Shown here piece after piece: positions 8,845 through 36,906 of a DNA stretch of 64,000 nt. The notes beneath the pieces were generated by a model that was not told the origin of the DNA, made no database searches, and was given only the letters and a program-made list of their open reading frames with translations. Position 1 is the stretch's first letter; each line of letters opens with the position of its first letter. Position numbers and translations under genes: made by a program. The stretch lies in assembly GCF_000226565.1 (NCBI RefSeq), contig NC_016041.1, positions 1,736,001 through 1,800,000 of the forward strand, given 5' to 3'. The stretch is from Glaciecola nitratireducens FR1064. GTDB taxonomy: Bacteria > Pseudomonadota > Gammaproteobacteria > Enterobacterales > Alteromonadaceae.

Positions 8845-8910
8845 ACGCGTTGCTCCTAGTCCTTGCAAAATACCTGACATACCGCTTCAATTGATAAAAA
8901 GAGAACAACG

Positions 8911-9952: not shown

Positions 9953-9960
9953 AATCGAAT

Positions 9961-9974: not shown

Positions 9975-10026
9975 TCCACGTTATAAGTGGTTTAAGTGTT
10001 TGTTTTATATGATTAATATTTTCCCG

Positions 10027-11057: not shown

Positions 11058-11074
11058 GCTTAATAAAATTTCTG

Positions 11075-11106
11075 AAAGCATCTTCCATTCGGTAGGTGCT
11101 TTTTTT
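11075..11106 (+). terminator. Terminator of the PEP-CTERM gene
   Basis: The stem AAAGCATCT/AGGTGCTTT (one G-U pair) with an 11-base loop is followed by a T-run, 18 bases after the stop codon. Confidence 0.8.
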
Positions 11107-11194
11107 ATGTCTGTTTCCAATAGGTCACCATACATATTACATTTAAGCGTAGTTAGTTATTCTATTAAGCCTTTTAAACATAAAACGTGATTAA

Positions 11195-11511: not shown

Positions 11512-11540
11512 TTCATTCTAAAAAATAGTGGATTATTTCA

Positions 11541-11573
11541 GGCAAAAAAAGGCTGATAAATCAGCCTTTTTTA
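11541..11573 (-). terminator. Terminator displaced from ssrA by the second island
   Basis: AAAGGCTGA-TAAA-TCAGCCTTT (11548-11569) has A-runs on the left and T-runs on the right, so it can work in both directions. On the minus strand it follows the ssrA 3'-end copy at 11581 by 11 bases, as a tmRNA terminator would. Confidence 0.75.
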
Positions 11574-11580
11574 TTTCGAT

Positions 11581-11598
11581 TGGTGGAGCTGGCGGGAA
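11581..11598 (-). repeat. attL of the island (18-bp ssrA 3'-end copy)
   Basis: TGGTGGAGCTGGCGGGAA is identical to 36889-36906 and diverges at the next base. It is the left core attachment site left after integration at the tmRNA 3' end. Confidence 0.85.
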
Positions 11599-15733: not shown

Positions 15734-18097
15734 ATGAGTGAAAACGGCAGTTCTCAAACCCCTAATAATTTGGCCGCATTTTGCTGGTCTATCGCAGATC
15801 TTCTCCGGGGTGATTTCAGGCAGAGCCAATATGGACGTATCATCCTTCCCTTTACCCTATTGCGTCGCCTCGAAGGCGTGTTAGAAAGCACTAAATTGCA
15901 AGTGCTTACTGAACTCGACAGAATTCAGACCATGAACCTACCTGAAGAAGCGCAGGAAAAACTCTTATTACGGGCCACTGATGGCTTGTCATTTTTTAAT
16001 ACCTCTAAGATGGATCTGTCTAAGCTGGGCGAGTCGGGCATCAAGGCTAACTTGCAAAGTTACATACAGTGCTTCTCTAAAGATGCTCGAGAAATCTTTG
16101 AGTACTTCAATTTCGCTGAATTTATAGGTCAGCTCAATGACGCTAACCTATTATATAAGGTAGTGCAGCGCGTCAGGCAAACTGACTTAAGCCCTAAAGC
16201 TATTTCTAATCACGATATGGGGCTTACTTTTGAAGAATTAATCCGCCGCTTTGCAGAAAGCTCAAACGATACGGCCGGTGAACACTTTACGCCGCGAGAC
16301 ATAGTGCGACTCACTACCTCATTGGTATTTATGGAAGATGACGAAGCCCTGACCAAACCTGGCATAATTCGCACTATATATGACCCCACCGCGGGTACAG
16401 GGGGCTTTTTGTCCTCTGGTATGGAGTATGTGCATGAACTGAACCCCAATGCAAAAATGGTGGCTTATGGGCAAGAGTTAAACCCTGAGAGTTACGCCAT
16501 TTGTAAGGCCGACATGCTGATCAAGGGCCAGGAAGTGAATAACATAAAACTGGGTAACACTCTCTCGAACGATCAACTGTATAGCGACAAATTTGACTAT
16601 ATGTTAGCTAATCCGCCTTTTGGGGTAGACTGGAAAAAGATTGAACAAAGCATTAAAGACGAAAACAGCCTCAAAGGTTTTGATGGTCGTTTTGGTCCTG
16701 GTTTACCCCGAGTGTCTGATGGCTCGTTGTTGTTCCTATTGCACCTTATAAGTAAGTTACGTGACAGTGGCGCTGGTGATAGTGCTAGCGGCGGTGCTCG
16801 TATTGGAATTATCCTGAATGGCTCACCTTTGTTTACGGGTGGCGCTGGCTCTGGTGAGTCTGAAATTCGTCGTTATATACTCGAAGCTGATTTACTAGAA
16901 GCCATCGTCGCACTGCCCACGGACATGTTCTACAACACTGGCATTGCTACATATGTATGGGTTCTGTCGAATAAAAAAGCGACTGAACGAAAGGGTAAAG
17001 TACAGCTAATAAACGGCGTTAATTTGTGTGGTAAAATGCGCAAATCATTAGGCTCTAAGCGCAATGAAATGAGCGACGGTGATATTGCGACTATTACACG
17101 TACTTTTGGTGAGTTTGAAGTGGTTGACGCTAGAGAGCTAGACAAACCTGTAGAGCAAAAAAGTAAAAGAGGTCGTCAGTCAGCCAATACTAAAGCCGCA
17201 GTTGCTAAAACCTTCGCCAGTAAAATCTTTGCGACCCATGAATTTGGTTATCGCCGCATTACTATTGAACGCCCTTTGAGGGAGTCATATCAATTCAGCA
17301 ACGAACGGATTGCCGAACTACGCTTTGCCGCTAAACCTTTCAACGCGCCGATGAAATGGATATATGAGCATTATGGGGCTTCATGGTCAGATGAACTTGA
17401 TAACCACCACTATGGTCTGCTGCAAGAGGATGCCGTTGAAATTCGTGCTTACATCAAATCCTACTTCGTCGACTTGAAAGAAAAACAAATTAAAGACCTA
17501 CTTGATAGCAAACTTTGGCTTCAGCAAAAGCACATCATGCTTAAAGCCAAACAACTGCAGAGTGCGATAGGTGATGCTCAGTGTGATGATATGAATACCT
17601 ATGATGCGTTGATAAAAGCTACCTGTCAAAGTCAGGGCGCTGTTCTTGATACTAAGGAGAAGAAGCAGATTACTGACGCTGTTAGTTGGAAGAATCCAAC
17701 TGCAGAAAAGGTTATTAAAAAGATCCATACAACCCAACCTAACCCTTTATATGGTTTGTTTGAAGTGCAATATAACGGCAGAACACAAGTGCTGGAATAC
17801 AAAACAGATGGGGACCTGAGGGACAATGAAAACGTCGCATTAGACCCAAGCCAAGCAGTGAATGACTTGAACGAAGCCTACTTCCTAAAAGAAGTGCAGC
17901 CTCATGTGCCTGATGCCTGGATTGATGCGAGTAAGAAAGACACAAAAGATCAAGAGGTTGGCATTGTAGGCTACGAGATCCCGTTTAATCGCCATTTCTA
18001 TCAATATCAGCCACCACGAGATTTAGCTAAGATAGATGCTGATTTGGATGCAGTCAGTACGGAGATCATGTCACTATTGCAAGAGGTGCATTCGTAA
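15734..18097 (+). CDS. hsdM: Type I restriction-modification system, methyltransferase subunit
   Basis: HsdM is the N6-adenine methyltransferase of a type I system, modifying the site chosen by HsdS. The 787-residue product has an N-terminal helical domain, the SAM-binding motif [11 protein letters not shown] (~residues 218-227) and the catalytic motif IV NPPFG (~residues 296-300). A long C-terminal extension after ~residue 500 makes it larger than classical HsdM (~500-530 residues) but similar to large variants. AAGGAAAG precedes ATG 15734. Its TAA overlaps the hsdS ATG by one base, so they are coupled. Confidence 0.93.
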
Positions 18098-19473
18098 TGC
18101 CATTTGAAAATAGGTATAGCGCTTATAAATACAGTGAATACTTTAATACAGATTTACCAGAATATTGGGAGGAGAAACGATTAGGTTATTTAGCAGATCA
18201 AGGACGCACAGCGTTCGTTGATGGCCCTTTCGGTTCTGACTTAAAAACAAATGACTACAAAGATAGTGGTGTTCCTTTAATACAGCTGAATAATATACGC
18301 GGTAGCAAACATCTCATGCAAAACATGAAGTTTGTTACTGAAGAAAAGAAACAGCAGCTAATTAGGCATTTGGCAATACCTGGCGAAATAGTTATTGCCA
18401 AAATGGCTGAGCCAGTTGCTCGATGCGCAATCGTTAATGATGAATATCCAGAGTATCTGATCGTAGCAGACTGTGTGAAACTTACTCCAAATATAGGACT
18501 GGTTGATTTGAGTTATTTGGTTTGGGCTATTAATAGTGAATGTGTCAAAGTCAATGCAGAGTTGGTTTCTACTGGTACAACAAGAATTCGTATAAATCTA
18601 GGTGAGCTTAAAAAGTTAAAGATACCTTATCCGTCTTTCGCCGAACAAAAAACTATCGCCAACTTCCTCGACCATGAAACTGCTAAAATCGACACCCTGA
18701 TCGCCAAGCAACAACAACTAATTGCACTACTCAAAGAGAAGCGTCAGGCTGTTATCAGTCATGCCGTTACCAAAGGCCTTAATCCTAACGCCGCCATGCG
18801 CGAATCAGGCGTTGAGTGGTTAGGTGAAGTACCGAAGCATTGGGAATTACCAAAGTTGATTCATCATACATCCAGAATTGGTGATGGATTGCATTCAACA
18901 CCAAAATATCAAGACAATACTGGGTATTATTTTGTAAATGGAAACAATTTAGTAAACGGCCATATTTGGGTGGGAGCGACTGCGAAAGAAGTACCTGAAG
19001 AAGAATATAAAAATCACTATGTTCATTTAGATGCAACCAGTGTATTGCTCTCGATTAACGGCACGATTGGTAATGTTGCTAGATATAATGATGAAAAAAT
19101 AATATTGGGTAAGAGTGCCGCTTATATGAATTGTTCTGGTGATTTATTGCCTGAATATTTAATGCTTTACTTACAGAGTAGTCAGGCGCTTCGTTATTTT
19201 GATTTGGAAGTGACAGGAACTACGATCTTCAACTTGTCTCTGAACTCTATTCGACAAATGAAGGTTTGTATTCCACCTGAAGCGGAACAGCTGGAAATAG
19301 ATGAGTATTGCCACCTTCAAAGGAACAAATACGGTACTCTTATAGAGAAAGCGAGCACTGCAATTACTCTAATGAAAGAGCGCCGCACAGCCCTCATCTC
19401 CGCTGCCGTTACCGGCAAGATTGATGTCAGAAATTGGCAACCTCCGCACAACACAAGTGACGCAAGGAAGTAA
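18097..19473 (+). CDS. hsdS: Type I restriction-modification specificity subunit
   Basis: HsdS sets the DNA target of both methylation and cleavage. The 458-residue product has two target-recognition domains, each followed by a conserved helical spacer; the first spacer reads FLDHETAKIDTLIAKQQQLI (~residues 189-208) and ends in GVEWLGEVPKHW, the usual start of the second half. The second spacer near the C-terminus has LMKERRTALISAAVTGKID. It overlaps hsdM by one base and is followed 4 bases later by hsdR. Both recognition domains look intact, but the target cannot be read. Confidence 0.93.
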   Translation: MPFENRYSAYKYSEYFNTDLPEYWEEKRLGYLADQGRTAFVDGPFGSDLKTNDYKDSGVPLIQLNNIRGSKHLMQNMKFVTEEKKQQLIRHLAIPGEIVIAKMAEPVARCAIVNDEYPEYLIVADCVKLTPNIGLVDLSYLVWAINSECVKVNAELVSTGTTRIRINLGELKKLKIPYPSFAEQKTIANFLDHETAKIDTLIAKQQQLIALLKEKRQAVISHAVTKGLNPNAAMRESGVEWLGEVPKHWELPKLIHHTSRIGDGLHSTPKYQDNTGYYFVNGNNLVNGHIWVGATAKEVPEEEYKNHYVHLDATSVLLSINGTIGNVARYNDEKIILGKSAAYMNCSGDLLPEYLMLYLQSSQALRYFDLEVTGTTIFNLSLNSIRQMKVCIPPEAEQLEIDEYCHLQRNKYGTLIEKASTAITLMKERRTALISAAVTGKIDVRNWQPPHNTSDARK

Positions 19474-19477
19474 CTTT

Positions 19478-22400
19478 ATGAGTGTGTTATCAGGCAACGG
19501 TAAAGCCAACGAGTTTACCTTCCAAAACGATATGGTCAGGCAGTTGCTTACTAATGGTTGGCTGTTAGGTAAACCTGAGAAGTACAATCGCGAGTTGGCT
19601 TTATACCCTGAAGACCTATTAGGTTTTGTCAAAGAAACGCAAGACGAGCAATGGCAGAAGTTTAAGACGATATATCCCAATAACGCAGACCAGACATTCT
19701 TAGAGCGTGTTACCGCGCAGTTAAACAAAGCTGATCCTAATGCAGCAAATAAAGAGATGCGTACCTTTGGTACTCTGGGTGTGTTACGCCATGACCTGCG
19801 TGACCGCGGCACACGTTTTAGCCTCTGTCAGTTCAAACCAGAACATGACCTTAACCCAGATACACTAGCCGCTTATAAAGCCAACCGTTTACGGGTAGTC
19901 CCTGAATTGGTTTACAGTCCTTGGGCGACAGAAGAACATTTAGTAGAGACAGGTAAAAAGGCTAAGGCCTGGCGTATTGATCTGGTGTTGTTTGTTAATG
20001 GACTGCCGGTAGTCACACTAGAGTTGAAGTCTGAGTTTAAACAAGCTGTGCAAAATGCGATTAAGCAATATAAAACAACTCGCTTTGCAGTTGACCCAAT
20101 AACTAGAAAACCTGAACCATTGTTAACTTTTAAACGTGGTGCATTAGTTCATTTTGCTGTAAGTCAATATGAAGTGTATATGGCTACGCGCCTAGAAGGC
20201 GATAACACCTATTTTTTACCGTTTAACAAAGGCACATCTGACGGCGCAGCCGGTAATGATGTGCCAGAAGATATAAACCAATACGCTACCGACTATCTCT
20301 GGAACGAAGTTTTATGTCCTGAAAACCTTTTGAATATATTGTCTCGCTTCGTCCACCTTCAGATTGAAGAGAAGGAAGATTGGGAAGGTCGCAAATATAA
20401 AAAAGAAACGATGATATTCCCTCGATACCATCAGTGGGATGTCGTAACCAAGTTAGTTGATGCTGCTTGCACCGAGGGTGCTGGTCATAAGTATTTAATT
20501 CAACATAGTGCTGGCTCAGGTAAATCTAATTCAATTGCATGGGTAGCCCATCAGTTATCAGCGTTAAGAGATGAAGAGGGTAATAAGAACTTTGATTCGG
20601 TCATCATTGTCACGGATAGGACGGTGTTAGATGATCAACTACAAGACACCATCTATCAGTTTGAACATACAGAAGGTGTAGTAGGGCGCATCAACAATAA
20701 AGAAGGTGACGGTTCTAAATCTGAGAAGCTAGCCAGTGCGCTAGAGAATTCACAACCTATTATCATTGTGACAATCCAGACATTTCCCCATGTATTAAAA
20801 GCGATTGAAAACAGTATTACCTTAAAAGAAAGAAAGTACGTTGTAATTGCTGATGAAGCCCACAGCTCTCAAACTGGCTCAACTGCAAGACAATTAAAAG
20901 AAGTCTTGATGGTTGATTCAACTGACCCAGATGGTGAATTAGGTACAGAAGACATCTTAGAGGCCGCTGTAGCCTCAAGGAGAGCCTCAACTAACCTAAG
21001 TTACTTGGCGTTTACTGCAACGCCCAAGACCAAGACTCTGGAACTATTTGGACGATTACCAAAGCCAGACGAAGCACCCTCAAAAACCAACCGGCCAGAA
21101 GCCTACCATGTCTATAGTATGCGCCAGGCGATAGAGGAGGGCTTTATACTCGATGTACTGAAGAACTATACCAACTATAAAGTTGCTTATAACTTAGCAA
21201 TGAAAATAGAAGCTAGTGATGAAGAAGTTGAGAGCAAAAAGGCTAAAGTAAAGTTAAACCAATGGGTGCGGCTGCATGACTACAACATCAGTCAGAAAGT
21301 ACAGGTTATCGTTGAGCACTTTAAAGACAATGTAATGGGTCTACTCGGTGGTCAAGCCAAGGCTATGGTCGTTACTGGTTCACGAAAAGAAGCCGTTCGT
21401 TACAAACTTGGATTTGACAAGTACATCATTGAGAAAGGTTATGACAAGTTATTTGCGATGGTAGCCTTTTCAGGTGAAGTTGAGTTTAGCGATAAAGATC
21501 CAAGCTCTGCTGGACTGTTAGGCGAGAAGTTTACTGAAACCAACATGAATCCATTTCTAAAAGGTCGTGATATGCGCAAGGCCTTTGATAGTGATGATTA
21601 TCAAGTCATGATAGTTGCGAACAAGTTTCAAACCGGATTTGACCAAGCGAAGCTTTGTGCCATGTATGTTGATAAAAAGTTAGGCGGGGTAGAGTGTGTA
21701 CAAACCTTATCAAGACTTAATAGAGTTTATCCTGGTAAGGCGCAAACGGGTACCTTTGTGCTGGATTTCTTCAATGACTCTGAAGACATCCTTGCTGCAT
21801 TTCAGCCATACTTTCAGACGGCTGAATTAGATGATGTATCCGATCCTAATCTAATCTTTGAGTTGTTTGACAAGTTACGCATGGCATCTATTTTCACTTG
21901 GTCAGAGGTGGAGCAGTTCTGTGCAGCTTACTTTATTAAGAACAAAAGTAATGCAGCGATAGCGAATATTTGTAAGCCAGCTATAGAGCGTTGGTCGCAA
22001 CGCTATAAGTCAGCTGTAGAGGCTTATAAACAAGCTAGAGACATGTTTGAGCGCACTAAGAAGACCAATGATGCTGTACTGATTGCAAACGCAGAGAATA
22101 GCTTTAAAGACTGCAAGAAAGAGAAGGATGCGCTAGAAATATTTAAGAAGGACCTAGGCACTTTCGTCAGATTCTATGAGTTCATGTCACAGATCGTTGA
22201 CTACGACGATAAAGACTTAGAGAAACTCAGTTTATATGCTCGTAATCTAAGGCCAATGTTAAAAGAATCAGTGGTAGAAGAAGACGAGATTGATTTAAGT
22301 AACGTTGAGCTTAGCCACTACCGCTTATCTAAAATTAAACAACAGCATATCAAACTTCAGATAAATGAGCCTGAAGCTAAATTAGTCCCAGGTGAAGGCT

Positions 22401-22741
22401 TAGGCACAGCTAAACCAACTGATAAAAAATCAGAGTTTCTATCACAGCTTATAGGCCGCCTGAATGAACTGTTTATTGTGGACCAGTTAACTGAGCAGGA
22501 TATGGTGAACTACGTCAATACCATCACTGACAAAGTGCGTGAAAATACTGCGGTAATGCAACAGATCAACAATAATAGTGAAGAACAAGCCATCCTTGGT
22601 GACTTTGCTAAGGCAGTCGATGATGCAGTTTTGGATAGCAGTGAGGCGCATCAAAATCAAATGATGCAGTTACTTTCAGACCCTGTCAGAGCGGCTGGAT
22701 TTTCTAAGCTGGTGTTTGAGATGTTGAAGCTTGCAAAGTGA
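19478..22741 (+). CDS. hsdR: Type I restriction endonuclease subunit
   Basis: HsdR is the ATP-dependent translocase and nuclease of the type I system. The 1087-residue product has a PD-(D/E)xK-type nuclease region with DLVLFVNGLPVVTLELK (~residues 168-184), Walker A HSAGSGKSNSIAW (~346-358), the DEAH box in ADEAHSSQ, and motif III TATPKT. Start ATG 19478 is chosen because AAGGAAG lies 6 bases upstream, at the end of hsdS; an in-frame ATG at 19421 lies within hsdS and is less likely. The gene is uninterrupted, so the system is predicted to be functional. Confidence 0.94.
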   Translation: MSVLSGNGKANEFTFQNDMVRQLLTNGWLLGKPEKYNRELALYPEDLLGFVKETQDEQWQKFKTIYPNNADQTFLERVTAQLNKADPNAANKEMRTFGTLGVLRHDLRDRGTRFSLCQFKPEHDLNPDTLAAYKANRLRVVPELVYSPWATEEHLVETGKKAKAWRIDLVLFVNGLPVVTLELKSEFKQAVQNAIKQYKTTRFAVDPITRKPEPLLTFKRGALVHFAVSQYEVYMATRLEGDNTYFLPFNKGTSDGAAGNDVPEDINQYATDYLWNEVLCPENLLNILSRFVHLQIEEKEDWEGRKYKKETMIFPRYHQWDVVTKLVDAACTEGAGHKYLIQHSAGSGKSNSIAWVAHQLSALRDEEGNKNFDSVIIVTDRTVLDDQLQDTIYQFEHTEGVVGRINNKEGDGSKSEKLASALENSQPIIIVTIQTFPHVLKAIENSITLKERKYVVIADEAHSSQTGSTARQLKEVLMVDSTDPDGELGTEDILEAAVASRRASTNLSYLAFTATPKTKTLELFGRLPKPDEAPSKTNRPEAYHVYSMRQAIEEGFILDVLKNYTNYKVAYNLAMKIEASDEEVESKKAKVKLNQWVRLHDYNISQKVQVIVEHFKDNVMGLLGGQAKAMVVTGSRKEAVRYKLGFDKYIIEKGYDKLFAMVAFSGEVEFSDKDPSSAGLLGEKFTETNMNPFLKGRDMRKAFDSDDYQVMIVANKFQTGFDQAKLCAMYVDKKLGGVECVQTLSRLNRVYPGKAQTGTFVLDFFNDSEDILAAFQPYFQTAELDDVSDPNLIFELFDKLRMASIFTWSEVEQFCAAYFIKNKSNAAIANICKPAIERWSQRYKSAVEAYKQARDMFERTKKTNDAVLIANAENSFKDCKKEKDALEIFKKDLGTFVRFYEFMSQIVDYDDKDLEKLSLYARNLRPMLKESVVEEDEIDLSNVELSHYRLSKIKQQHIKLQINEPEAKLVPGEGLGTAKPTDKKSEFLSQLIGRLNELFIVDQLTEQDMVNYVNTITDKVRENTAVMQQINNNSEEQAILGDFAKAVDDAVLDSSEAHQNQMMQLLSDPVRAAGFSKLVFEMLKLAK

Positions 22742-27505: not shown

Positions 27506-28661
27506 GACTTCTCAGATTTTGCTAGATACTTTTAACAGTTACAATTTAACTTTAAATTTAGGTGTTTATGAGCAAAGGCAAACAGTATACCGAAGAGTTT
27601 AAGATTGAAGCAGTAAAGCAAGTTACCGAACGAGGATATTCTGTTCAAGACGTTGCTGAACGTTTATGGGTAACAACAAAATCGCTCTATTATTGGAAAA
27701 GCAAATTTAGCGATAATAAGACGACGCGACATATTAAAAAAGGCGCAAGGTAGTTTACAAGCCATCCAGAGTGAAGTACGCCTTTATCCGGGAACACCAA
27801 GACGAGTTTTCTGTGTTAGCAATGTGCAGAGTGCTCAAATCAATCGCAGTGGCTTTTATGCGTGGCTCAAACAACCGTTGAGTAACCAAGCTATCGAAGG
27901 CAGTCGTTTGCTGATGCGGATAAAAGAGTGTTACGTTGCCAGTGGCGGAATGTATGGCAGTCCTTGGAACCACCGTGACCTTCGTGAAGTGGGTGAATCT
28001 TGTAGTGTTAATCGCATGGCTAAAATCATGCGGCAGAACAGCCGATAGAGCGCAAATTGGTTACAAGCGCAGGTACATAAAAGGCAGCAAGCTATCTCGA
28101 ATTGCAGATAACATATTGGAGCGCGACTTTGCTCCAAATAGGCCTAATACAGCGTGGGTGAGCGATATTACCTACGTTCGCACCTATGAAGGTTTTTTGT
28201 ACTTGGCGACCGTTATCGATTTATTTTCTCGCAGAGTTGTCGGTTGGTCTATGGACAAAAACATGGATAAGCACCTTGTCGTTGGGGCTTTATTGATGGC
28301 CGTTTATCAACGACGACCTACAGGCCCTGTGTCAGTGCAAAGCGATCAGTGAAGCCAATACGGCAGTAATGATTACCTTACTTTCATGAAAGAGCATAAC
28401 CTAGAGCCTTCCATGAGCCGCCGCGGAAATTGCCATGATAATGCGGTTGCTGAAAGCTTCTTTGCGACATTTAAAAAACGCGTAATAAGACAAAAGATAT
28501 ATTCGACAAGGGACGAAGCGAAGACAGGGATATTTAACTTTATAGAAATGTTTTACAATCCTAAAAAACGCCATTCGCGTACAGGCAGTGTATCACCTGT
28601 TAAATTCGAGGAAACGTATTTTTTGGAACAACAGACTGTCTAGTGAAAGCTGGGAAGTCCA
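27506..28661 (+). mobile_element. Degenerate IS3-family insertion sequence
   Basis: An 1156-bp element is bounded by imperfect ~26-bp inverted repeats beginning TGGACTTC (27506-27531 and, inverted, 28636-28661); 19 or more of 26 positions match by eye. It encodes IS3-type OrfA and OrfB, but both are broken. No clear target-site duplication is seen, suggesting age or later rearrangement. It lies between the protease and the amidohydrolase operon. Confidence 0.8.
27568..28643 (+). pseudogene. IS3-family transposase, multiply disrupted
   Basis: OrfA starts at ATG 27568 with the HTH region EEFKIEAVKQVTERGYSV and ends early at about residue 61, lacking the leucine-zipper part. OrfB follows in pieces: an HTH_21-like segment (27824-28048, QINRSGFYAWLKQ), then after a frame change the integrase core with its first Asp in WVSDITYV (~28155). 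The second Asp is in SVQSDQ and is followed by an in-frame TGA at 28350 where SDxGSQY is expected. The catalytic Glu is in DNAVAESFF. At least two frameshifts or deletions and one nonsense change make transposition in cis impossible. Confidence 0.85.
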
Positions 28662-29085: not shown

Positions 29086-29574
29086 TCAAGTGAATTTAAT
29101 TTCTATTGCAATTCCCTCGTTGGCGAATGCCTGCTGAAGCCATTTAGCTGCTGTTTCATTTTCAATATAGACTGATTTCGCTGAGCCATTCGCTGTCGAC
29201 TGAGAAGTGGTCACACCATGCATGCTTCCGTTGCCCATTTCGTCAGTAATAAACAATGATAATCTTGTGACCAAATTAAATGCCTTGGCGTTTCCGCCAA
29301 CCTCGTTATCAACCCAAAAATAAATGCGGTCTTGATATTTCTGAAATGTGCTGCTGTCTATTTCAACGTTTAAATCAGACTTTTCTATGCCATAGCAGTC
29401 AAGTAGTTCCTCGTCGTCGTAAGATTCTAAGTTGTCACCCATTATAGCCTCAATAAAAGTGGCCCAATCTATAATGACGTCCAGGTCTATGATGCCATTA
29501 ATGCCACTATCAAGTGTTACTTCATTGTAATACTCAGTATTGACGAACAGTGTTTGAATCATACTGGCTTTCAT
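29086..29574 (-). CDS. Hypothetical acidic protein, 162 residues
   Basis: No family is recognised. The product is acidic and soluble without signal or membrane segments; the N-terminal half is rich in Asp/Glu and the end carries a helix (AAKWLQQAFANEGIAIEIKF). ATG 29574 has an AGGACA ribosome-binding site. It lies 60 bases downstream of the DUF3293 gene on the same strand and probably closes a three-gene operon with it and the amidohydrolase. Confidence 0.6.
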   Translation of the reverse strand: MKASMIQTLFVNTEYYNEVTLDSGINGIIDLDVIIDWATFIEAIMGDNLESYDDEELLDCYGIEKSDLNVEIDSSTFQKYQDRIYFWVDNEVGGNAKAFNLVTRLSLFITDEMGNGSMHGVTTSQSTANGSAKSVYIENETAAKWLQQAFANEGIAIEIKFT

Positions 29575-29634
29575 TGTCCTGATACCTTTTAATAGATGAG
29601 CGAGAATGATGCCACAAATAGTTTTTACGGCGTG

Positions 29635-30078
29635 TCACTTTATTACCGGTAAATACTCGAAATTAGCTAATATTAAAAGCATGACTGGGGAATTTCTTTC
29701 TATTTTTAAAATTCCCAACTGACCAAAGTGTGCAGCGAGTTGATGCATATCGTTTCCATTATTGCAGAAGATTAGGTAACTTTTCTCTCGTTGCCAGCTT
29801 TCATCCTCATCTGTTCCATACCCCTCCAAGTAGGTAAGGTCTTTCTGGCTCAGTGACAGGGTAAAGCGTTTGTGTCTCAGGTCGTTTTCTTCATTAGTTA
29901 AGTTCTGACTGAATGGGTTTTCTGGTGTTATAAAATAAGCAAACCGTGCATCGTGGTCACTTAGCATCTTCTCGATGACAAAATCATGTTCACCAACCCG
30001 TATTCGGTGATCAATGTTTTGGTCAACAACCACGTATTTAGCTGTCTTATAAGCGTTTATGAGCTCTTCTTTAAGCAT
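29635..30078 (-). CDS. DUF3293-family protein
   Basis: The 147-residue product has the pattern recalled for DUF3293: a central AYFITPENPFSQ (~residues 46-57), a following ENDLRH segment, GYGTDEDESW (~85-94) and an aromatic/Gly C-terminal part. The family has no established function. It starts 3 bases after the stop of the amidohydrolase gene, so the pair is translationally close. No membrane or signal segment is present. Confidence 0.65.
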   Translation of the reverse strand: MLKEELINAYKTAKYVVVDQNIDHRIRVGEHDFVIEKMLSDHDARFAYFITPENPFSQNLTNEENDLRHKRFTLSLSQKDLTYLEGYGTDEDESWQREKSYLIFCNNGNDMHQLAAHFGQLGILKIERNSPVMLLILANFEYLPVIK

Positions 30079-30081
30079 GTT

Positions 30082-30846
30082 TCAAAAAACCTTTGTTTTA
30101 AATTTATCCACACCACTGTAGATTGCATTACATATTTTGCTTCTCTGCCTATCGCTGTATTGATTCAAGCAAAAATGGCCCTCATCCATATAAACATCAC
30201 GTCGAATTTCTATCATAAACCCCATTACATTTTTACTCGTTCGCCAAAATTTAGAGGGTACTAATGTACCAGAAAAGGGGGTGTTTACAGCTACATCAAA
30301 GCCTTCCTGCTCGAAAGCTGAGACTATACCGGATTCGAGCCTTTTTGGCGTATGAAAGTCGCAACAACCAATACAAACTTCTGGACGAGGTAAGGTTTGG
30401 TCTAATTCGTATGGTAATGCAGTACTTGGGTATGAGTGCACATCAATAATGATTATCTTGCCATATTTTTTTACAAGTGACTCAGCTCGAGACTCAAGTA
30501 GTTTATGATGTGAATAGTAATATTTTTTAAGAAGTTCGCTTCTTTCCAGTTGAGTCAAATCTCGTCGGATAGTTTGTCGTTGACTACCTTTTTCATAAAT
30601 AACACCCATACCCACTTGTGACATCGTTTCTAATGAATCATCATCAAATCGCTCCATATCTACCAAAAGCCTTGAAACGGGGGCAATTATTCGATTTTCA
30701 TTGCATACTTCGAGCGGTTTAACCAGCCAGTCCGTGAAATGGTCTGTTATTGCATTAATTTCATTTTTAAGCTCTACCTCTGAACAAATGAATTGGTCTA
30801 TATCGTCAGTCGGTATATGCGTGCTGGCATGGGGAATATGCAACAA
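30082..30846 (-). CDS. N-formylglutamate amidohydrolase-family protein
   Basis: The family contains HutG-type zinc amidohydrolases that release glutamate from N-formylglutamate, and relatives of unknown substrate. The product shows LLHIPHASTHIP at the N-terminus, VDMERF (~residues 65-70), a metal-site-like IIIDVHSYPS (~131-140) and a C-terminal MIEIRRDVYMDE. The start is unclear: no ATG or GTG exists upstream in frame. TTG 30846 is used here, but the best ribosome-binding site (GAGGGT at about 30875-30880) would instead serve an ATA at 30867, giving seven more residues that fit the family N-terminus. No hut genes are nearby, so histidine catabolism is unlikely; the true substrate is unknown. 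Confidence 0.85.
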   Translation of the reverse strand: MLHIPHASTHIPTDDIDQFICSEVELKNEINAITDHFTDWLVKPLEVCNENRIIAPVSRLLVDMERFDDDSLETMSQVGMGVIYEKGSQRQTIRRDLTQLERSELLKKYYYSHHKLLESRAESLVKKYGKIIIIDVHSYPSTALPYELDQTLPRPEVCIGCCDFHTPKRLESGIVSAFEQEGFDVAVNTPFSGTLVPSKFWRTSKNVMGFMIEIRRDVYMDEGHFCLNQYSDRQRSKICNAIYSGVDKFKTKVF

Positions 30847-31089
30847 AATATCTTGGAAAGTATCTATTGACTTACCCTCTATTTATACTTTTAAAAAGCT
30901 GAAGCAGCGCTGGAATTGTATCTTATTGCACACTCAAAAACATGAACATCCATTGTGCTAAATTCAAATTATCCTACCTTGACGGGCCGCGTTTTAAAAG
31001 GGCAAATGGGTAGTGCTTTATTTTGCGCGAGGCTCATATACTTACCTTACTATGCTCACAGTGATTCTGTTAATTTTATATTACGCTGT

Positions 31090-31467
31090 TTATTCACTTG
31101 GGAAATCGGCGTTTACAAATTTGACTGTCCAGTGATTGTCACTTAAACCTTCTGAGACATTGTGATGTAGTGCTTTTTTCTCGGAGTAACCGTGGTTAGC
31201 TAAAAGCAGCTTTACGATAGCACTATTCATTTCACCTTTGAGTCCACCAGATAAGCTAAGTCGTTCCTGAACGACACTGATCAGGTCTAACGTGTCTAAA
31301 AACTTTGGGTGCTGCTCTTTCCAATTAACTAACGTTTGGCGAGTTACACTTAATTCACAGGCGAGCCCAGCTTGACTCGGTACAGCATCACCACAATCTA
31401 AATACCCTCCCTCGGCATACCAGTCTGCCTTTGCCTGAACTTTTTTACAATACTTGGTAGGTCTCAT
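31090..31467 (-). CDS. Orphan terminase small subunit, P22 gp3-like
   Basis: Small terminases recognise pac/cos sites and start DNA packaging together with the large terminase. The 125-residue product begins RPTKYCKKV, has a helix-turn-helix-like region (AGLACELSVTRQTLVNWKEQHP, residues ~33-54) and the block NSAIVKLLLANHGYSEK (~81-97), recalled as characteristic of the gp3-like DNA-packaging family. There is no large terminase or structural gene in the island. Phage-inducible chromosomal islands use such an orphan TerS to redirect helper-phage packaging. Its ATG overlaps the stop of the phosphoesterase gene (ATGA), with GAGGTG as ribosome-binding site inside the upstream gene. Confidence 0.75.
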   Translation of the reverse strand: MRPTKYCKKVQAKADWYAEGGYLDCGDAVPSQAGLACELSVTRQTLVNWKEQHPKFLDTLDLISVVQERLSLSGGLKGEMNSAIVKLLLANHGYSEKKALHHNVSEGLSDNHWTVKFVNADFPSE

Positions 31468-32405
31468 TTCTTCACCTCACTTATTAACTGTGTCGATACA
31501 AGCTTTGACTCTAATAGGGTGCTTTCACCATCAAATCGGTAAGCAACCAAGTGGCCATTGTCTTTCACGACTGACCAGTCGAGGCATGCAATCTTATCTG
31601 ATAGTAATTGTGGCTTGCCTGTCATCCAGTAGTGACCGAAAAATACAGGCTTCAATATTCTGGCATTACTGAGAACTTCTGCTGGTAACGGCTCATCTGG
31701 CAATTGCGAAGGATGTGGCACTGACACTGCAGTAGTTCTATAAGTTGATGATGAATTTAAATCCCACCATTTCAAACGCATCTTAGAACGAGTATGGCCA
31801 CCACCATCTTTAAATGAGTGCCCTGAAGGCAAATCTAGCTCAGGGCCTTTTAGGCAATACTCAATCGCTTCATAAAGCGGGTGGCTTTTTGTGGTTGCTG
31901 GCACCCACTGTTGTTGCTGTAACCTGAAGTCAGTCGTTAAGTGCGCTTTGAGATACGCAATGTTCTTATCATCCCAGGCTGCATGTGCACAGCAAAATTG
32001 TCCAGTTTCAAAAAGCAGGGGTAATGACATAAACCATTCAATGGTTTCAATGTACCAAGAAGAATTAACATCAGCCTGTTCTAGAAATTCACAATGTTGA
32101 TCATAATTCTTTGTTGTATGGGGACGGAGGTTGTTGCCTGATTTATCCTTCAAGTACCATGACACCGCATTAAATTCGTGGTTGCCCATTAGCACCTTGG
32201 CGTGACCAGCTTGTTCCATGGCTTTCAGTATATTGACCACTTCGCGTTGTTTAGGTCCGCGATCAACTAGATCGCCTATGGAGATTAGTGTTCGATTAGG
32301 ATGCGACCAAATACCGTCAACTTCTTTGTAGCAAAGCTTCTTGAGCAGTTGTACTAATTTATCTGCATGACCATGAACGTCACCAATAATATCAAATGCA
32401 CCCAT
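31464..32405 (-). CDS. Calcineurin-like metallophosphoesterase (Ser/Thr phosphatase or ApaH-like)
   Basis: The 313-residue product has the three N-terminal metal-binding blocks of the family: GDVHGH (8-13), GDLVDRG (44-50) and GNHE (74-77), with later His residues in the HAAWDDKN and GHYWMTG regions. It could dephosphorylate proteins or hydrolyse ApnA or other nucleotides; sequence alone cannot decide. The gene overlaps the downstream TerS gene by 4 bp, so the two are made together. That coupling is unusual and suggests a role in satellite control or helper-phage interference (inference). Confidence 0.85.
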   Translation of the reverse strand: MGAFDIIGDVHGHADKLVQLLKKLCYKEVDGIWSHPNRTLISIGDLVDRGPKQREVVNILKAMEQAGHAKVLMGNHEFNAVSWYLKDKSGNNLRPHTTKNYDQHCEFLEQADVNSSWYIETIEWFMSLPLLFETGQFCCAHAAWDDKNIAYLKAHLTTDFRLQQQQWVPATTKSHPLYEAIEYCLKGPELDLPSGHSFKDGGGHTRSKMRLKWWDLNSSSTYRTTAVSVPHPSQLPDEPLPAEVLSNARILKPVFFGHYWMTGKPQLLSDKIACLDWSVVKDNGHLVAYRFDGESTLLESKLVSTQLISEVKK

Positions 32406-32442
32406 TTTTATGCCTCTGCAAAGCTATTACCTGAGTTAAATC

Positions 32443-32571
32443 TTACCACATATCAGGTGCAGCATCATAATCAGCCCACCATTTATTATCTATCTGTTCT
32501 TGTGGGTACTTGTCTTTAAAAGCAAAGTTGTGTTTTAGACACGCATGACCAGACCTAACATCAGAATACAA
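32443..32571 (-). CDS. Possible 42-residue protein
   Basis: A minus-strand frame from TTG 32571 to TAA 32443 encodes MYSDVRSGHACLKHNFAFK, then KDKYPQEQIDNKWWADYDAAP. The aromatic- and acid-rich composition is unlike random AT-rich translation, and GAGGA lies about 11 bases before the TTG. It sits between the polymerase-like gene and the phosphoesterase. It may be a real small gene or the tail of a lost one. The 126 bases from 32572 to the polymerase-like gene show nothing else. Confidence 0.35.
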   Translation of the reverse strand: MYSDVRSGHACLKHNFAFKDKYPQEQIDNKWWADYDAAPDMW

Positions 32572-32697
32572 ACAGCTATTTTTTCCTCATTCACGCTAAC
32601 ATTTACTTAATTCTTTGTTCACATATTTAATTGAGCTCATAGTATTTTAGAATATGGATTCCATAGCAACCCCCTATTATTGAACAAACCCTCAGTA

Positions 32698-34149
32698 TTA
32701 ATAAGCCTGTAGAGTAAGCGTGGTGTGGCTTTCATTAATTAACAGACTGAGGTTTTTTTGCGCTTGTGGAAATGAGCATTCATACATAACTTTGATACCT
32801 GTTTTATTGAAGATTTCAGCCTCAAGTTTTTTTAGGTCGATATTGCAATCGGTAGATGTAAATCCGTCGTGTTGAAGTAGTGTGATTGAAGGGCCATGCA
32901 GCTCAATCACTACTTGCTGAATCGCTGCCTCTTGTCCCTGTAAAATATGGGCAAGCTGCTTTGTTTCTGACGCATTTTTGCTGATCCTCTTTCCAATCGC
33001 ATTACAAATGCCTGTTCGCTGCGTATGAGACTTAATAAGCACTTTGCGAGTCTCCCTCAGCTCTTTTCGCAAGCTTTTGAATGTCAGGTCATCTCGGACC
33101 TGTTTTGCCTTATTAACGCTGCCTACAGTCTTCACAAGTGTTTCATCCCTCTTGATTGATAGGGCCATGCCGAATATGAGACTGAGGAGTAATTCTTTAA
33201 TTGTGCTTTGGTGGAGATTGAGTTTTTTGGCAAGCCTTGTGCGTTCTTGTCTTTTGTGTCTGAGATAATATTCGACGGTTGGTAGCTTAAGCCCTTCGCG
33301 CGCTGCAAGTTGCACTAGAATGGTGTATTGACAATTCGAAATATCATATTCTGGCTGACCGAATAGTGCTGCTTGTCTAACCTCTTTTGGCATGTATTGG
33401 AGATGGATATTCACACCATATAAACGGCCAGTTGATTTTTCTTGGTATTGTTGAATTATTTCGCCACTTACAGTCTGAGTATCTTTTGCTGCAAGCAGTA
33501 ATAACTCTGCCTTGTGGATTCGTTCTACTTTCCACTGTTCAAGCTCATTTACTGGTAGACCAGTTACCGCTTCCCGCAAGCCGATGGGTAAAAGATTGTC
33601 AGGGCCATCAAGTATCTCTATCAGCCTATGTAGCGAAGTTGTCGAAATGGGCACGCTAGGTTTTATGAATGCTTGCGTCTTAGCTTTGTTGCCTTCAATG
33701 TTCCTTGAGAGTATTGCACTTGTTGGACCGTGCTTTGTTCTCAACTGGATTGGTTTATTGTTTTTCGAAATCAGATTGATTTGCTCAGGCGAAGTCTTAA
33801 GAAATATTTGTGTTAGTTCTTTCGCTTGATTAGTCAGGTTGTACTTTCTAGTTTCTTTGTTTTTCGCTTGATAGTAATTGCCTTGTTGAATAAGGGGTAA
33901 ATCACGCAAGAGCCTGTTATAGGTAGGCCCTAAAAGTTCTCTAAGCGTTTTGCAACTTACAAAAAAATGATTAGATGAGGATGCATGTTGAAACCGTTTA
34001 GGATTTATCACGTTGGCCCAGATAAGTGAGACATATACTAAGGCAACTGGCCAAGACAATGCACTTAATTCTGGCACCTGTGAGCGCATAAAATCTACAT
34101 ACTCTTTCGGTGTGCTAACGAATGGATGAGAGCTCATTGATATATTCAC
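32698..34149 (-). CDS. Replication-type protein with Pol I/T7 RNAP-like (family A) palm motifs
   Basis: The product is 483 residues (479 from ATG 34137; GTG 34149 is the longer start). The N-terminal ~230 residues have no recognised domain. The rest follows the order of family-A polymerases. Motif A is YDISNCQYTIL with Asp269. Motif B has Lys318, then seven residues, then FGM (326-328), the same spacing as Lys/Tyr-Gly-Met in E. coli Pol I. A LQGQEAAI block (403-410) corresponds to QGTAAD, and motif C LLQHDGF has His427-Asp428. The ribose-gate Glu of Pol I motif A aligns with Gln274. There is no exonuclease domain. Its location beside alpA and the integrase suggests that it is the satellite's replication protein. 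The polymerase call is inference from motifs. Confidence 0.7.
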   Translation of the reverse strand: MNISMSSHPFVSTPKEYVDFMRSQVPELSALSWPVALVYVSLIWANVINPKRFQHASSSNHFFVSCKTLRELLGPTYNRLLRDLPLIQQGNYYQAKNKETRKYNLTNQAKELTQIFLKTSPEQINLISKNNKPIQLRTKHGPTSAILSRNIEGNKAKTQAFIKPSVPISTTSLHRLIEILDGPDNLLPIGLREAVTGLPVNELEQWKVERIHKAELLLLAAKDTQTVSGEIIQQYQEKSTGRLYGVNIHLQYMPKEVRQAALFGQPEYDISNCQYTILVQLAAREGLKLPTVEYYLRHKRQERTRLAKKLNLHQSTIKELLLSLIFGMALSIKRDETLVKTVGSVNKAKQVRDDLTFKSLRKELRETRKVLIKSHTQRTGICNAIGKRISKNASETKQLAHILQGQEAAIQQVVIELHGPSITLLQHDGFTSTDCNIDLKKLEAEIFNKTGIKVMYECSFPQAQKNLSLLINESHTTLTLQAY

Positions 34150-34211
34150 GCAAAGAGGTGCTGACCACCTGTCTAGGCAGGCAGTTAGCAGCCATTAGTT
34201 TGCAAGTTCTC

Positions 34212-34445
34212 TTAATCGCCGTTGACAGCAGAGTTAACGTCCTCGAGTTTAATTAACTCGTGCATCAATTCATCAATAGTAACGGCCAACTCATAATCAA
34301 GGTTCGAGCAGTTTATCTGACAGGCTTGTGATTCTGAGCTTCTGAACTTGCTGTTTGCATCCCGCATAGCAGCGCGCAATGCTATTAGGACATCTTGTTT
34401 TTCTTTAATATCTAACGCTATCGCAAATACATCGCAGATTTTCAT
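34212..34445 (-). CDS. Small hypothetical protein, 77 residues
   Basis: No family is recognised. The product is acidic, helical and has three Cys residues. Its ATG overlaps the stop of the alpA gene (ATGA), so it is translated with it. It precedes the polymerase-like gene by about 60 bases on the same strand. Small genes in this position of P4-like elements are often regulatory, but no evidence beyond location exists here. Confidence 0.6.
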   Translation of the reverse strand: MKICDVFAIALDIKEKQDVLIALRAAMRDANSKFRSSESQACQINCSNLDYELAVTIDELMHELIKLEDVNSAVNGD

Positions 34446-34756
34446 GCTGCAAATTCCTTTTTTTCAGTTAGAGAGTATTGAACAACTGATTTGAGAAAGG
34501 CGTTCGCAGAATGTGTACGAGTCTCTTCTAGCTTTTCTACAAGAAAGCGTATTTCACTATCAGATTGATTAGCTGCACGAGCCGCGATGATTGCCTGAAC
34601 TTCGTGCTCAAGATAGCCTACAGCGCGTTGACCAATGTTGATAGGTTTTACGAATAAGCGCTGTTTTTGTAAGTAGTGCAGCGTTGTTTTAGAACAGCCG
34701 ATAAGGCTGAGTGTTTCTGGTCTACGAATCACTCTGTGGCTAAATGTAATAGTCAT
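34442..34756 (-). CDS. AlpA-family MerR-like transcriptional regulator
   Basis: AlpA proteins are small excisionase-like DNA-binding regulators found in P4-type satellites and PICIs. The 104-residue product shows the winged-helix pattern RRPETLSLIGCSKTTLHYLQ (~residues 9-28), a basic/hydrophobic wing with PINIGQRAVGYLEHEV, and a helical C-terminus. Start ATG 34756 is chosen because AGGAGA is well spaced before it; an upstream ATG at 34798 would add 14 residues without such a site. It probably controls the island's replication/packaging genes and integrase excision (inference). Confidence 0.85.
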   Translation of the reverse strand: MTITFSHRVIRRPETLSLIGCSKTTLHYLQKQRLFVKPINIGQRAVGYLEHEVQAIIAARAANQSDSEIRFLVEKLEETRTHSANAFLKSVVQYSLTEKKEFAA

Positions 34757-34843
34757 TGTCGGTATCTCCTCTGTTGTTACCGACATCCTATTATTCACAT
34801 ATAAAGGTAGTTGTACCGGATCAATAATGCGTTTATTCGTCCG

Positions 34844-35380
34844 CTATGTTTTTTTGAATTTTCTATACGCCCTCAAAAAAGACTCAACATCCTTAGCGAC
34901 TTTTGTCCCAGTCTGTTCGTGAAATTCTATTTTCCATTTTTTAAAAAATTCTTTCTGCGTTAGTGGTTTGATTCCATCGGAAGCGGCGCATTGCAACTCA
35001 GCATCATACTTCCAACTAAAATCGCGAACAGGATGTTGACTTTGTACTTGCGCAGCAAAATTTCCAGCTTTTGGTTTGATCTTTCCAAAGATTCTTTCAA
35101 GTTCAACATCGCCACCTTTCATGAAATAGAAGCCGAAAGTCTGTTTTAACCATTCCAACAGATACGCAGGCGGGTAAGCATCACTATTCAAATAAAAAAG
35201 GAGGGCTTCTAATGGTGTTTCAAACATATCTTCATCTGAACGATCAGCAATAAAAGCAATGTCCTTTTTATGAATTTGACCCAACCGCACAGCCTTGAAG
35301 GGGGGGGAAGAATCGGAAAACTGTAACTTTAGATACTTAGCATTTTCCCATGTGTTTTTTAAATGTATTGGTGATGACAT
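34844..35380 (-). CDS. Hypothetical protein with C8 tract near its start
   Basis: No family is recognised. The 178-residue product is soluble and basic at the C-terminus (SFLRAYRKFKKT). ATG 35380 has a GAGGG ribosome-binding site. Codons ~24-27 contain eight C in a row on the coding strand (35300-35307), which could slip and switch the gene off. It lies between alpA and the integrase, the usual place for accessory regulators in P4-like islands. Confidence 0.6.
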   Translation of the reverse strand: MSSPIHLKNTWENAKYLKLQFSDSSPPFKAVRLGQIHKKDIAFIADRSDEDMFETPLEALLFYLNSDAYPPAYLLEWLKQTFGFYFMKGGDVELERIFGKIKPKAGNFAAQVQSQHPVRDFSWKYDAELQCAASDGIKPLTQKEFFKKWKIEFHEQTGTKVAKDVESFLRAYRKFKKT

Positions 35381-35471
35381 ACTACCCTCAAGTATTCCTT
35401 ATTTTATTTACCAATTCAGGCCGATAGGGTTGCAGCTGTTTGGGAGCCAACCTAGACTTTCTGAAAGTGTA

Positions 35472-36725
35472 TTAATTATTAATCAATCTCAATGTTTTAT
35501 TGGTATTCGCTAAACTCATATTGCCAGTAGCAGCCTGTTCAACGTGAGCCGACCACCAGTTCATAACTTTTCTGCGTCTCTCCAAATAATCAGTGCGATT
35601 GTAAGCGCGTCTGACGCTATTACTGTCTATGTGTGCCAAGCATGCCTCGATGACGTCAGGTGCGAACGCTCGCTCATTCAGCGTCGTGCTAGCCAGGGAC
35701 CGCAACCCATGCGCTACTAATGTTTTGTGATAACCCATTCGCTTTAAGGCCATATTTGCCGTCTGAGTGTTTGTATGCGTTTTAGGGTTTCGATCAGCAG
35801 GAAAGATAAACTCTCTGTGACCACTAATCGGTTTTATAAAATCGAGTAGGGCGAGTGTCTGTGGCGTTAGTGGTACAACGTGATCGCCATTGTTCTTTTT
35901 TTTCATCTTATCAGCGGGGATTGTCCATGTTTGGTTATCAAGGTCGATCTCACTCCATTTAGCAGTTGCTGCTTCGCTCGGTCTAACCATTGTGTGTAAT
36001 TGCCATTCGATCAGCGTACGTGTGACAAGTTTAATGCTAGCAGTGCTCAAGCTTTGCATTAGTTGAGGTAGTTCTTCAGGTTTTATTGTTGGCAAGTGCT
36101 TTGGATTGGGTGAAAGAAATGCCTTGTGGATCTTAGACAACGGGTTAATGTCGATCAGCCCTGTATTGACAGCATAGTCCATGACTTCGTTAATGCGCTG
36201 ACAAAGTCGTTTGATTGTTTCTTTACTTCCTTTGGCTTCGATAGGCCGCAAAAACTCAATCACTTCAGAAGGTGTTAGTTCTTTAACAGGGCGTTTTCCG
36301 ATATGAGGAAATACATGGTTCCTGAGCGATGCTTCAATTTGAACCGCGTATTTAGCCGTTACTTTTGTTGATTTGACTCTCAGCCAATCAAGGGTGATGC
36401 AAGTAAAACTGTTAGCTTTATCTTGAGTTGCCGTGCGCTTAACTTCTGCTTTATGTGATTTTGGGTCGATGTCCTTTGATAATAGCTTGTGTGCATTTTT
36501 TCGTTTTTCTCTAGCATCAGCTAATCCTACGGTTGGATAAATACCAAAACTCATATCTTTGCGTGTGCCACTAAAAGGCACTTGGTACCTAAATATCCAA
36601 TCCTTTGTGCCACCTGCTCGAACGCGCAAATGTAATCCTCTGCCATCACTGAGCTTATAATCTTTCTCACGTGGCTTGGCACTCTGTATCTTTGAATCTG
36701 TTAATGGTGTTGCTACTCTGGGCAT
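35472..36725 (-). CDS. int: P4-type tyrosine integrase
   Basis: This site-specific recombinase is responsible for integration at ssrA. The 417-residue product has the N-terminal arm-binding DUF4102-type domain (LSDGRGLHLRVRAGG, ~residues 25-39), a core-binding domain, and the catalytic domain with Arg248 (MVRPSEA), His339-x-x-Arg342 (HGLRS), His365 and the Tyr nucleophile in AYNRTDYL (Tyr375 most likely). All catalytic residues are present. It begins 164 bases from the ssrA 3' end and reads away from it. A 12-bp inverted repeat lies immediately before its ATG. Confidence 0.95.
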   Translation of the reverse strand: MPRVATPLTDSKIQSAKPREKDYKLSDGRGLHLRVRAGGTKDWIFRYQVPFSGTRKDMSFGIYPTVGLADAREKRKNAHKLLSKDIDPKSHKAEVKRTATQDKANSFTCITLDWLRVKSTKVTAKYAVQIEASLRNHVFPHIGKRPVKELTPSEVIEFLRPIEAKGSKETIKRLCQRINEVMDYAVNTGLIDINPLSKIHKAFLSPNPKHLPTIKPEELPQLMQSLSTASIKLVTRTLIEWQLHTMVRPSEAATAKWSEIDLDNQTWTIPADKMKKKNNGDHVVPLTPQTLALLDFIKPISGHREFIFPADRNPKTHTNTQTANMALKRMGYHKTLVAHGLRSLASTTLNERAFAPDVIEACLAHIDSNSVRRAYNRTDYLERRRKVMNWWSAHVEQAATGNMSLANTNKTLRLINN

Positions 36726-36726
36726 T

Positions 36727-36778
36727 TTAGGGGTACAAATCGTTTGTTTAGTGAGGTTGTACCCCTAAATGTACCACT
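36727..36778. promoter_or_regulatory. Inverted repeats upstream of int: arm sites or operator
   Basis: TTAGGGGTACAA (36727-36738) and TTGTACCCCTAA (36757-36768) are a perfect 12-bp inverted repeat, followed by a third copy TGTACCACT (36770-36778). Two further copies are at the island's left end (11657-11677). This distribution fits integrase arm-type sites that may also autoregulate int. Confidence 0.65.
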
Positions 36779-36888: not shown

Positions 36889-36906
36889 TGGTGGAGCTGG
36901 CGGGAA
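36889..36906 (-). repeat. attR of the island within the ssrA 3' end
   Basis: This is the 18-bp core shared with attL at 11581-11598. It forms the CCA end and part of the acceptor/T-arm of the tRNA-like domain, so integration leaves ssrA intact. Confidence 0.85.

Follow-up and report, generated by a model that had tools for sequence, protein, structure and literature searches.

The gene studied here, which follows an integrase gene and alpA in Glaciecola nitratireducens FR1064, raised the question of what kind of enzyme its 483-residue product is and whether that enzyme copies the element carrying it. The gene lies in a window of 64,000 nucleotides (NC_016041.1, positions 1,736,001 to 1,800,000), and window positions are used throughout. 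Its open reading frame runs over 483 codons of the minus strand, and the plus-strand reading of the same interval holds 31 stops. An initial annotation, made from the sequence alone, had proposed a family-A (Pol I/T7-like) polymerase that serves an island for replication. Our results indicated that the product is very probably a working family-A polymerase of the TV-Pol kind serving the element, and we lean towards the view that it replicates the island. It belongs to a little-studied group of mobile-element enzymes distant from DNA polymerase I, and it hints that int-alpA islands possess a replication module which would be annotated as hypothetical. The features of the locus are collected in Table 1.

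Table 1. Features of the tmRNA-linked island in the window, and SSB-like genes of three related loci (positions of the last three rows are those of the loci named).
Feature	Position	Strand	Evidence or remark
TV-Pol-like family-A polymerase, 483 aa	32698-34149	-	GTG start; next in-frame ATG is codon 5
p77, 77 aa, no function by families, between alpA and polymerase	34212-34445	-	no family match below E 0.03
AlpA-type excisionase/regulator, 118 aa	34442-34798	-	Pfam Phage_AlpA 28.1 bits (cut-off 21); phrog_66 E 3.8e-6
p178, uncharacterised ORF	34844-35380	-	no family match
Tyrosine integrase, 417 aa	35472-36725	-	NF007246 491.3 bits (cut-off 434); PF00589 E 8e-27
tmRNA gene, tag ANDENYALAA	36889-37246	-	probable integration target
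Repeat at tmRNA 3' end, TGGTGGAGCTGGCGGGAA, 18 bp	36889-36906	.	probable attachment site
Identical 18-bp copy	11581-11598	.	probable far island end, 25.3 kb away
Third, shorter repeat copy, 14 bp	9961-9974	.	perhaps end of older or tandem element; 1.6 kb further out
Type I restriction-modification cargo	15734-22741	+	HsdM 15734-18097, HsdS 18097-19473, HsdR 19421-22741; named by reading
Calcineurin-like phosphoesterase, downstream of polymerase	31464-32405	-	PF00149 E 4.7e-12
Small gp3 DNA-packaging family protein	31090-31467	-	PF16677 E 2.3e-29, 102.1 bits (cut-off 29.4)
SSB-like gene, L003	5669-6049		upstream of polymerase
SSB-like gene, L004	6828-7205		upstream of polymerase
SSB-like gene, L019	1384-1755		upstream of polymerase

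Using tblastn, the protein matched two Polaromonas plasmids, in both cases over 92% of its length, with 27% identity (E 1e-36) and 23% identity (E 1e-26). It also matched a phage of the Desulfovibrio group (142 kb; E 4e-5) represented by two records of equal length. Among 295 genomes of the family the protein query matched 2, and among 394 of the order it matched 6, its own genome being counted in each; the profile query matched 1 of 369 genomes of the class, namely its own. Profile-guided scans yielded 16 loci on genome contigs (Rhodoferax, Halomonas, Citrobacter, Pectobacterium, Zobellella, Roseateles, Pelomonas, and others) and eight on viral contigs, five of them near-copies; the window protein alone found no relative among the viral contigs. 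The confirmed stretches (17 of 176 and 8 of 36) gave 24 loci, 17 of which were aligned with the window protein (alignment A4, 18 rows). A4 omits L016, where the locus starts inside the gene, L027, where the frame ends early, L036, whose N-terminal part is out of register and which was kept in alignment A3, and four loci (L031, L032, L034, and L035) identical to L033 at 367-373 of 373 residues. Across the 19 rows of A3, no PHROG match was better than E 0.013 and no Pfam match better than E 0.001, each of these occurring in a single member. In the tree, the window protein stood apart from the Pelomonas and Roseateles proteins (L020 and L022), its placement being weakly supported (65/85), and it had a long branch (1.7 changes per column) and an unusual letter make-up. 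A label test with 21 ungrouped rows left out did not reject one origin.

The active-site motifs were examined against these alignments. DxSxxQ, K-x7-FGM, and HD, which the initial annotation had named, were found at the residues it gave (D269-I-S-N-C-Q274, K318-x7-F326-G327-M328, and H427-D428, numbered from the GTG). QGxEAA was also present, as Q404-G405-Q406-E407-A408-A409, with its end at residue 409 and not at 408 as had been written. The motifs were more than chance occurrences, as D269, K318, G327, G405, E407, D428, and G429 are invariant in the 18 rows of A4, and so are Y235, G241, R242, N272, Y295, K299, R303, and N383. H427 was kept in 17 of the 18 and is Tyr in L026; motif C reads HDG (YDG in L026) rather than HDE, the Glu of HDE being absent. 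Y235, G241, and R242 belong to a further motif, Y235-x5-G241-R242-L243, which on sequence grounds is the counterpart of the template-arginine hairpin 'TGRL' of Pol I. In a wider set of 27 sequences, D269, E407, D428, and G429 were present in all, K318 in 26, and R242 in all 26 that cover its position; L011 lacks K318 and is gapped at 326-327, and residue 299 of L003 is Arg.

Positions linked to sugar choice were compared in the same way. Glu710 of Pol I corresponds to position 274, where none of the 27 sequences has Glu: 23 have His, the window protein and L011 have Gln, L009 has Ala, and the phage has Val. At position 322, which corresponds to Phe762, Phe was likewise absent from all 27, and the residues found were Leu, Ile, Val, or Thr. 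Arg at position 314, the counterpart of the O-helix Arg, occurred in one row of A4, as expected from the earlier remark that this residue is not conserved. Position 326 was Phe in the window protein and Tyr in 16 of the 18 rows. A Tyr639-to-Phe change in T7 RNA polymerase relaxes sugar choice, and Phe326 occupies what we take to be the matching place. According to the available part of PMC7581432, Glu710 and Phe762 of Pol I act against ribonucleotides, and CcPol keeps both. Since equivalents of both were missing from all 27 sequences, a relaxed sugar choice is predicted for the polymerase.

With the polymerase as a single sequence, no significant match was obtained in Pfam, PHROGs, NCBIfam, or PDB sequences. 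In the Pfam scan no match to PF00476 (DNA_pol_A) was found up to E 10, and no exonuclease domain was detected, in line with the absence noted earlier; PF00476 finds one gene in the same genome, at C1:15360-16490. The relation to DNA_pol_A lies beneath what a single sequence can detect. When the A4 profile was compared with a profile of 26 Pol I sequences (those of 30 Pol I loci with the searched motif), HHalign gave a score of 43.1 (E 1.4e-4, probability 52%). The reversed alignment scored 13.3, none of 20 column shuffles exceeded 19.0, and two unrelated T7 proteins scored 14.9 each. The match was modest (probability range 52-60%), with 14-22% identity in the aligned stretches. As single sequences, T7 DNA polymerase scored 26.6 (2.4%) and T7 RNA polymerase 20.4 (0.4%), the latter in the N-terminal part outside the polymerase motifs; hence single distant sequences were hardly recognised.

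We take the Pol I residue numbers D705, Glu710, R754, Phe762, and D882 as reference positions. The local alignment placed GRL on TGRL and K318-x7-FGM on K-x7-YGM of Pol I, and the global and realigned outputs also placed Q404-G405 and H427-D428 on its QG and HD. D269 fell on the Asp of DYSQIE (D705), and Q274 on its Glu, in the realigned output only and with low stated confidence; the first local and global outputs set D269 about four residues off D705. Both Asp residues, D269 and D428, occur in 18 of 18 rows and are aligned with D705 and D882 in the realigned output, the motif A part being weak. Among the candidates rejected, an HTH_30 match (E 0.061) and similar single-sequence matches were taken as chance, and so was a neutrophil-activating protein, the sole match of the profile search of PDB sequences (E 0.023, N-terminal part).

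An AlphaFold2 model was built from A4 (pLDDT 81.8, pTM 0.82) and compared with the PDB using Foldseek. Of 53 matches at E <= 0.001, the best 50 were all family-A polymerases (E 1.5e-7 to 5.9e-4), 48 being family-A DNA polymerases by title, which ranked first, and two being mitochondrial RNA polymerases. Taq, Pol theta, Pol nu, T7 DNA polymerase/replisome, and the apicoplast polymerase were included. TM-scores among these best 50 of 53 were 0.35-0.43 and the rmsd was high (6.7-20.7 A), so the domains match and the overall arrangement does not superpose closely. Among viral models, matches were obtained to virophage replication proteins, from the Zamilon (E 1.0e-8) and the Qinghai Lake (E 4.9e-7) virophages, and to phage DNA polymerases I. 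In the model, D269 belongs to a strand formed by residues 267-270, and H427-D428 occupy the turn that joins strands 422-426 and 429-432; both are placed, as we take it, like their counterparts in the Pol I palm, and this modelled placement fits a family-A palm. A confident structure without a palm fold had been named beforehand as the outcome that would speak against a family-A polymerase; the model and the controlled match to the Pol I profile both bear the family-A reading out. The N-terminal part of the model has the order helix-strand-helix-helix-strand-strand. A winged helix was considered for it and dropped, as the comparison with plasmid RepA was unsupportive (E 0.054; reversed 0.67; T7 RNA polymerase 0.05).

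TV-Pols were described as minimal family-A enzymes that occur in transposons and viruses (Iyer, Abhiman and Aravind 2008, PMC2579912). They were predicted to be primase-polymerases and to stand near the ancestor of Pol I and T7-type RNA polymerases. A subset lies beside resolvase, integrase, or transposase genes; in other elements TV-Pols replace primase modules beside helicases (PMC2579912). One example was named in Microcystis phage Ma-LMM01, in a text that gives no gene number (PMC2579912). A quick genome search of Ma-LMM01 gave no candidate, and a full ORF scan (150 of 162 kb scanned) found MAP_030, the best of 278 ORFs by profile (HMMER E 0.0066). HHalign of the profile against MAP_030 scored 63.0 (E 1.2e-7, probability 94%). 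The reversed alignment scored 18.4, none of 50 shuffles exceeded 23.6, and none of the 60 other ORFs with 250 aa or more exceeded 28.7. Since MAP_030 adjoins two transposase genes, it is probably the published example. It has His where Pol I has Glu710.

The window protein shares with TV-Pols the minimal thumb-hairpin-palm-fingers layout, the hairpin Arg, the two palm Asp, the lack of a nuclease domain, a size within 400-600 residues, and a mobile-element setting with integrase or resolvase, and it comes closest to those TV-Pols that have an N-terminal domain and lie near a resolvase or integrase gene. It differs in that its island has no D5 helicase, and in that the fingers motif RxxxK was not seen at the expected place: K318 is kept in 18 of 18 rows of A4, whereas Arg four residues before it occurs in one. 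MAP_030 also lacks this Arg. Upstream of K318, the rows of A4 share an invariant Y295-x3-K299-x3-R303. A further difference is that linkage to alpA and to type I restriction genes is absent from the text of PMC2579912. We file the window protein as a new TV-Pol member, with reservation over RxxxK.

We further investigated the element that carries the gene. The integrase, p178, alpA, p77, and polymerase genes follow one another on the minus strand beside the tmRNA gene, the start of p77 overlapping the end of alpA by 4 bases. Between the 18-bp repeat copies lie the type I restriction system, a DUF262-like gene, a gene for a large subtilase-like protein, and other genes, named by reading. The whole is a probable mobile island of roughly 25 kb at the tmRNA gene. 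In a search for the empty site, 13 genomes of the genus were compared; eight of them, its own included, had matches to the left flank (7831-9960), and an empty site was not seen. In six of the seven other genomes the matches and the tmRNA gene were on different contigs, and in genome G088 a 28-base match lay about 196 kb from that gene. The island boundary was therefore drawn from the repeats and gene content only. The Pfam scan found no helicase among the ten ORFs at 29086-36725, the rest of the island being read by eye, and no D5_N match was found in the whole genome at E <= 1, which agrees with the earlier statement that a P4-type helicase is lacking. No origin-type repeats stood out, and neither promoter-like sites (4 versus a mean of 9.4) nor terminator-like sites (3 versus 4.2) near the genes exceeded chance. 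Small-terminase genes occur in phage satellites. Since a gene of the gp3 packaging family lies downstream of the polymerase, int-alpA islands are possibly phage satellites; no homologue of this gene was found in the related loci searched.

Other sequences in and around the island were recorded as well. A perfect 13-bp inverted repeat (TTTAGGGGTACAA / TTGTACCCCTAAA, 36726-36769) immediately precedes the integrase gene and touches a promoter-like site; it is a possible operator or integrase arm site. The 1.6 kb between the 14-bp and 18-bp copies (9961-11598) holds one ORF of secreted type (10515-11057) with a PEP-CTERM-like tail, and is perhaps what remains of an older insertion or of a tandem one. 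At 27562-28643, fragments of an apparently decayed IS3-like transposase were recognised by reading in several frames.

A survey of neighbourhoods for the row of integrase, alpA, and polymerase had been suggested, and the setting did recur. The Roseateles locus (L022) has an integrase, alpA, the polymerase, a DUF3293-like gene, and HsdR, and the Pelomonas locus (L020) has alpA, the polymerase, HsdM, and HsdR; both are Sphaerotilaceae. HsdM and/or HsdR homologues were found beside these two and L026. RepA, of the RepA_C family, and ParA were encoded on plasmids L003 and L004 and on contig L016, and resolvase-type recombinases were located near several other relatives. With 88 of 118 neighbouring ORFs scanned and the first 25 of 104 families listed, a helicase in single relative loci could be missed. 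On three enterobacterial contigs (L017, L018, and L028) and in genome L090, recombinase-like ORFs lay within a few kb of the polymerase (L018 and L090 by tblastn or Pfam, L017 and L028 by reading).

Directly upstream of the polymerase, an SSB-like gene of 123-126 aa was present in the Polaromonas plasmids pH8NP1 and pW9NP1 and in an Alcaligenaceae contig; in pW9NP1 the two genes are neighbours once the ends of the circular record are joined. Of the three SSB-like genes, those of L003 and L019 matched phrog_378, annotated as single strand DNA binding protein (E 3.2e-5 and 0.0057). The L004 protein gave no phrog_378 match but is homologous to the first (31.5% identity). In the plasmid collection, an SSB-like gene at E <= 0.01 was found in those two Polaromonas plasmids only. 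The three SSB-linked polymerases fall within a supported tree group of six (98/98); of the same group, L013 and L015 showed no SSB-like gene nearby and L016 is cut. The single-sequence model of the SSB-like protein had a pLDDT of 39.6, too low to establish an OB fold, and the protein had no relative among the viral contigs and no match among PDB sequences. No SSB gene was found beside the window polymerase among the window ORFs scanned.

These features were compared with known systems. CcPol-MP and PolA-SSB primases of SCCmec and other Bacillota elements, as far as the available parts of PMC7581432 and PMC10061031 describe them, likewise place a family-A catalytic domain on a mobile element, and the PolA-SSB arrangement is matched by the SSB-like gene upstream of the polymerase in three relatives. 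By contrast, CcPol keeps the equivalents of E710 and F762, which the window protein lacks (CcPol being likened by description only, from the available text), and neither an SSB gene nor a helicase was found next to the window polymerase. Bacterial Pol I shares the aligned GRL hairpin, K...YG, QG, and HD, and D705 under D269 in the realigned output. It differs in its exonuclease domain, none being found in the window protein, and in E710, F762, R754, and the Glu of HDE, all of which are replaced. The divPolA1 and divPolA2 enzymes of tailed phages are also highly divergent family-A polymerases, likened here by description only, but they come from phages that encode a regular polymerase as well (available part of PMC11348598). 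The 2020 CcPol paper, in its available part, states that to its authors' knowledge no other proposed TV-Pol member had been biochemically characterised (PMC7581432). In the literature searched, mostly without subscription papers, we found no description of an int-alpA island with such a polymerase or of a Pol-SSB pair in Pseudomonadota.

The alternatives to a TV-Pol that replicates its element, not all of which exclude it, were weighed against this evidence. An active family-A polymerase might serve repair, gap-filling, or second-strand synthesis after DNA transfer instead of element replication. The plasmid relatives encode a separate RepA initiator, and shuttle plasmids with cloned Polaromonas regions, pH8NP1 included, replicated, the polymerase gene being unmentioned in the available part of that report (PMC6015842). 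That no helicase was found next to the window gene would also suit a repair enzyme. However, core genes of an element are typically the ones linked to recombinases and alpA, and TV-Pols stand in for primase modules beside helicases in other elements (PMC2579912); a repair function is unlikely.

That the protein is an RNA polymerase-like enzyme of T7 or mitochondrial type, which transcribes the element or makes RNA primers only, we regard as improbable. The absence of Glu710 and Phe762 from all 27 sequences and the two mitochondrial RNA polymerases among the best 50 of 53 fold matches would fit such an enzyme, but the other 48, ranked first, are DNA polymerases, T7 RNA polymerase itself matched poorly and outside the polymerase motifs, and 483 aa is far below its 883 aa. 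A catalytically dead or decaying polymerase retained as a DNA-binding protein could account for the long branch, the unusual letter make-up, and Gln at position 274 where most relatives have His. Against this stand the open frame, the family-invariant residues, all intact, and the confidently modelled fold, and such decay is very improbable.

For a replicating TV-Pol, we propose the following scheme. The protein would consist of an N-terminal accessory domain (about residues 1-165), a thumb, a hairpin with R242, a palm with D269 and D428, and fingers with K318. AlpA and the integrase would excise the tmRNA-inserted element, the excised island would form an opened circle on which the polymerase synthesises both primers and DNA, and host enzymes, presumably with a host helicase among them, would unwind the island DNA and finish its synthesis. 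A minimal or self-priming replicase in place of the usual Pri-Rep, as the initial annotation had suggested, is plausible from the context. A fuller version is tentative and rather doubtful: a helicase-free single-protein primase-polymerase that starts with NTPs or mixed nucleotides, extends with dNTPs, and replaces the P4-type Pri-Rep in int-alpA islands, the plasmid branch in Pseudomonadota acting as a Pol-SSB pair and extending PolA-SSB primases beyond Bacillota. The subfamily is compact, has no convincing Pfam or PHROG match among 19 members, and lacks the two dNTP-favouring residues of Pol I and CcPol; the parting of DNA-making and RNA-making family-A enzymes is therefore directly testable with it.

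Two congeneric genomes carry short matches to the tmRNA region at a distance from the tmRNA gene itself. A 23-base match to the tmRNA 3' end lies about 40 kb from the tmRNA gene in G140 (C1:491152-491174), and a 23-base match to the tmRNA 5' end lies about 7 kb from it in G160 (C2:420683-420705). These perhaps mark other elements at the same gene.
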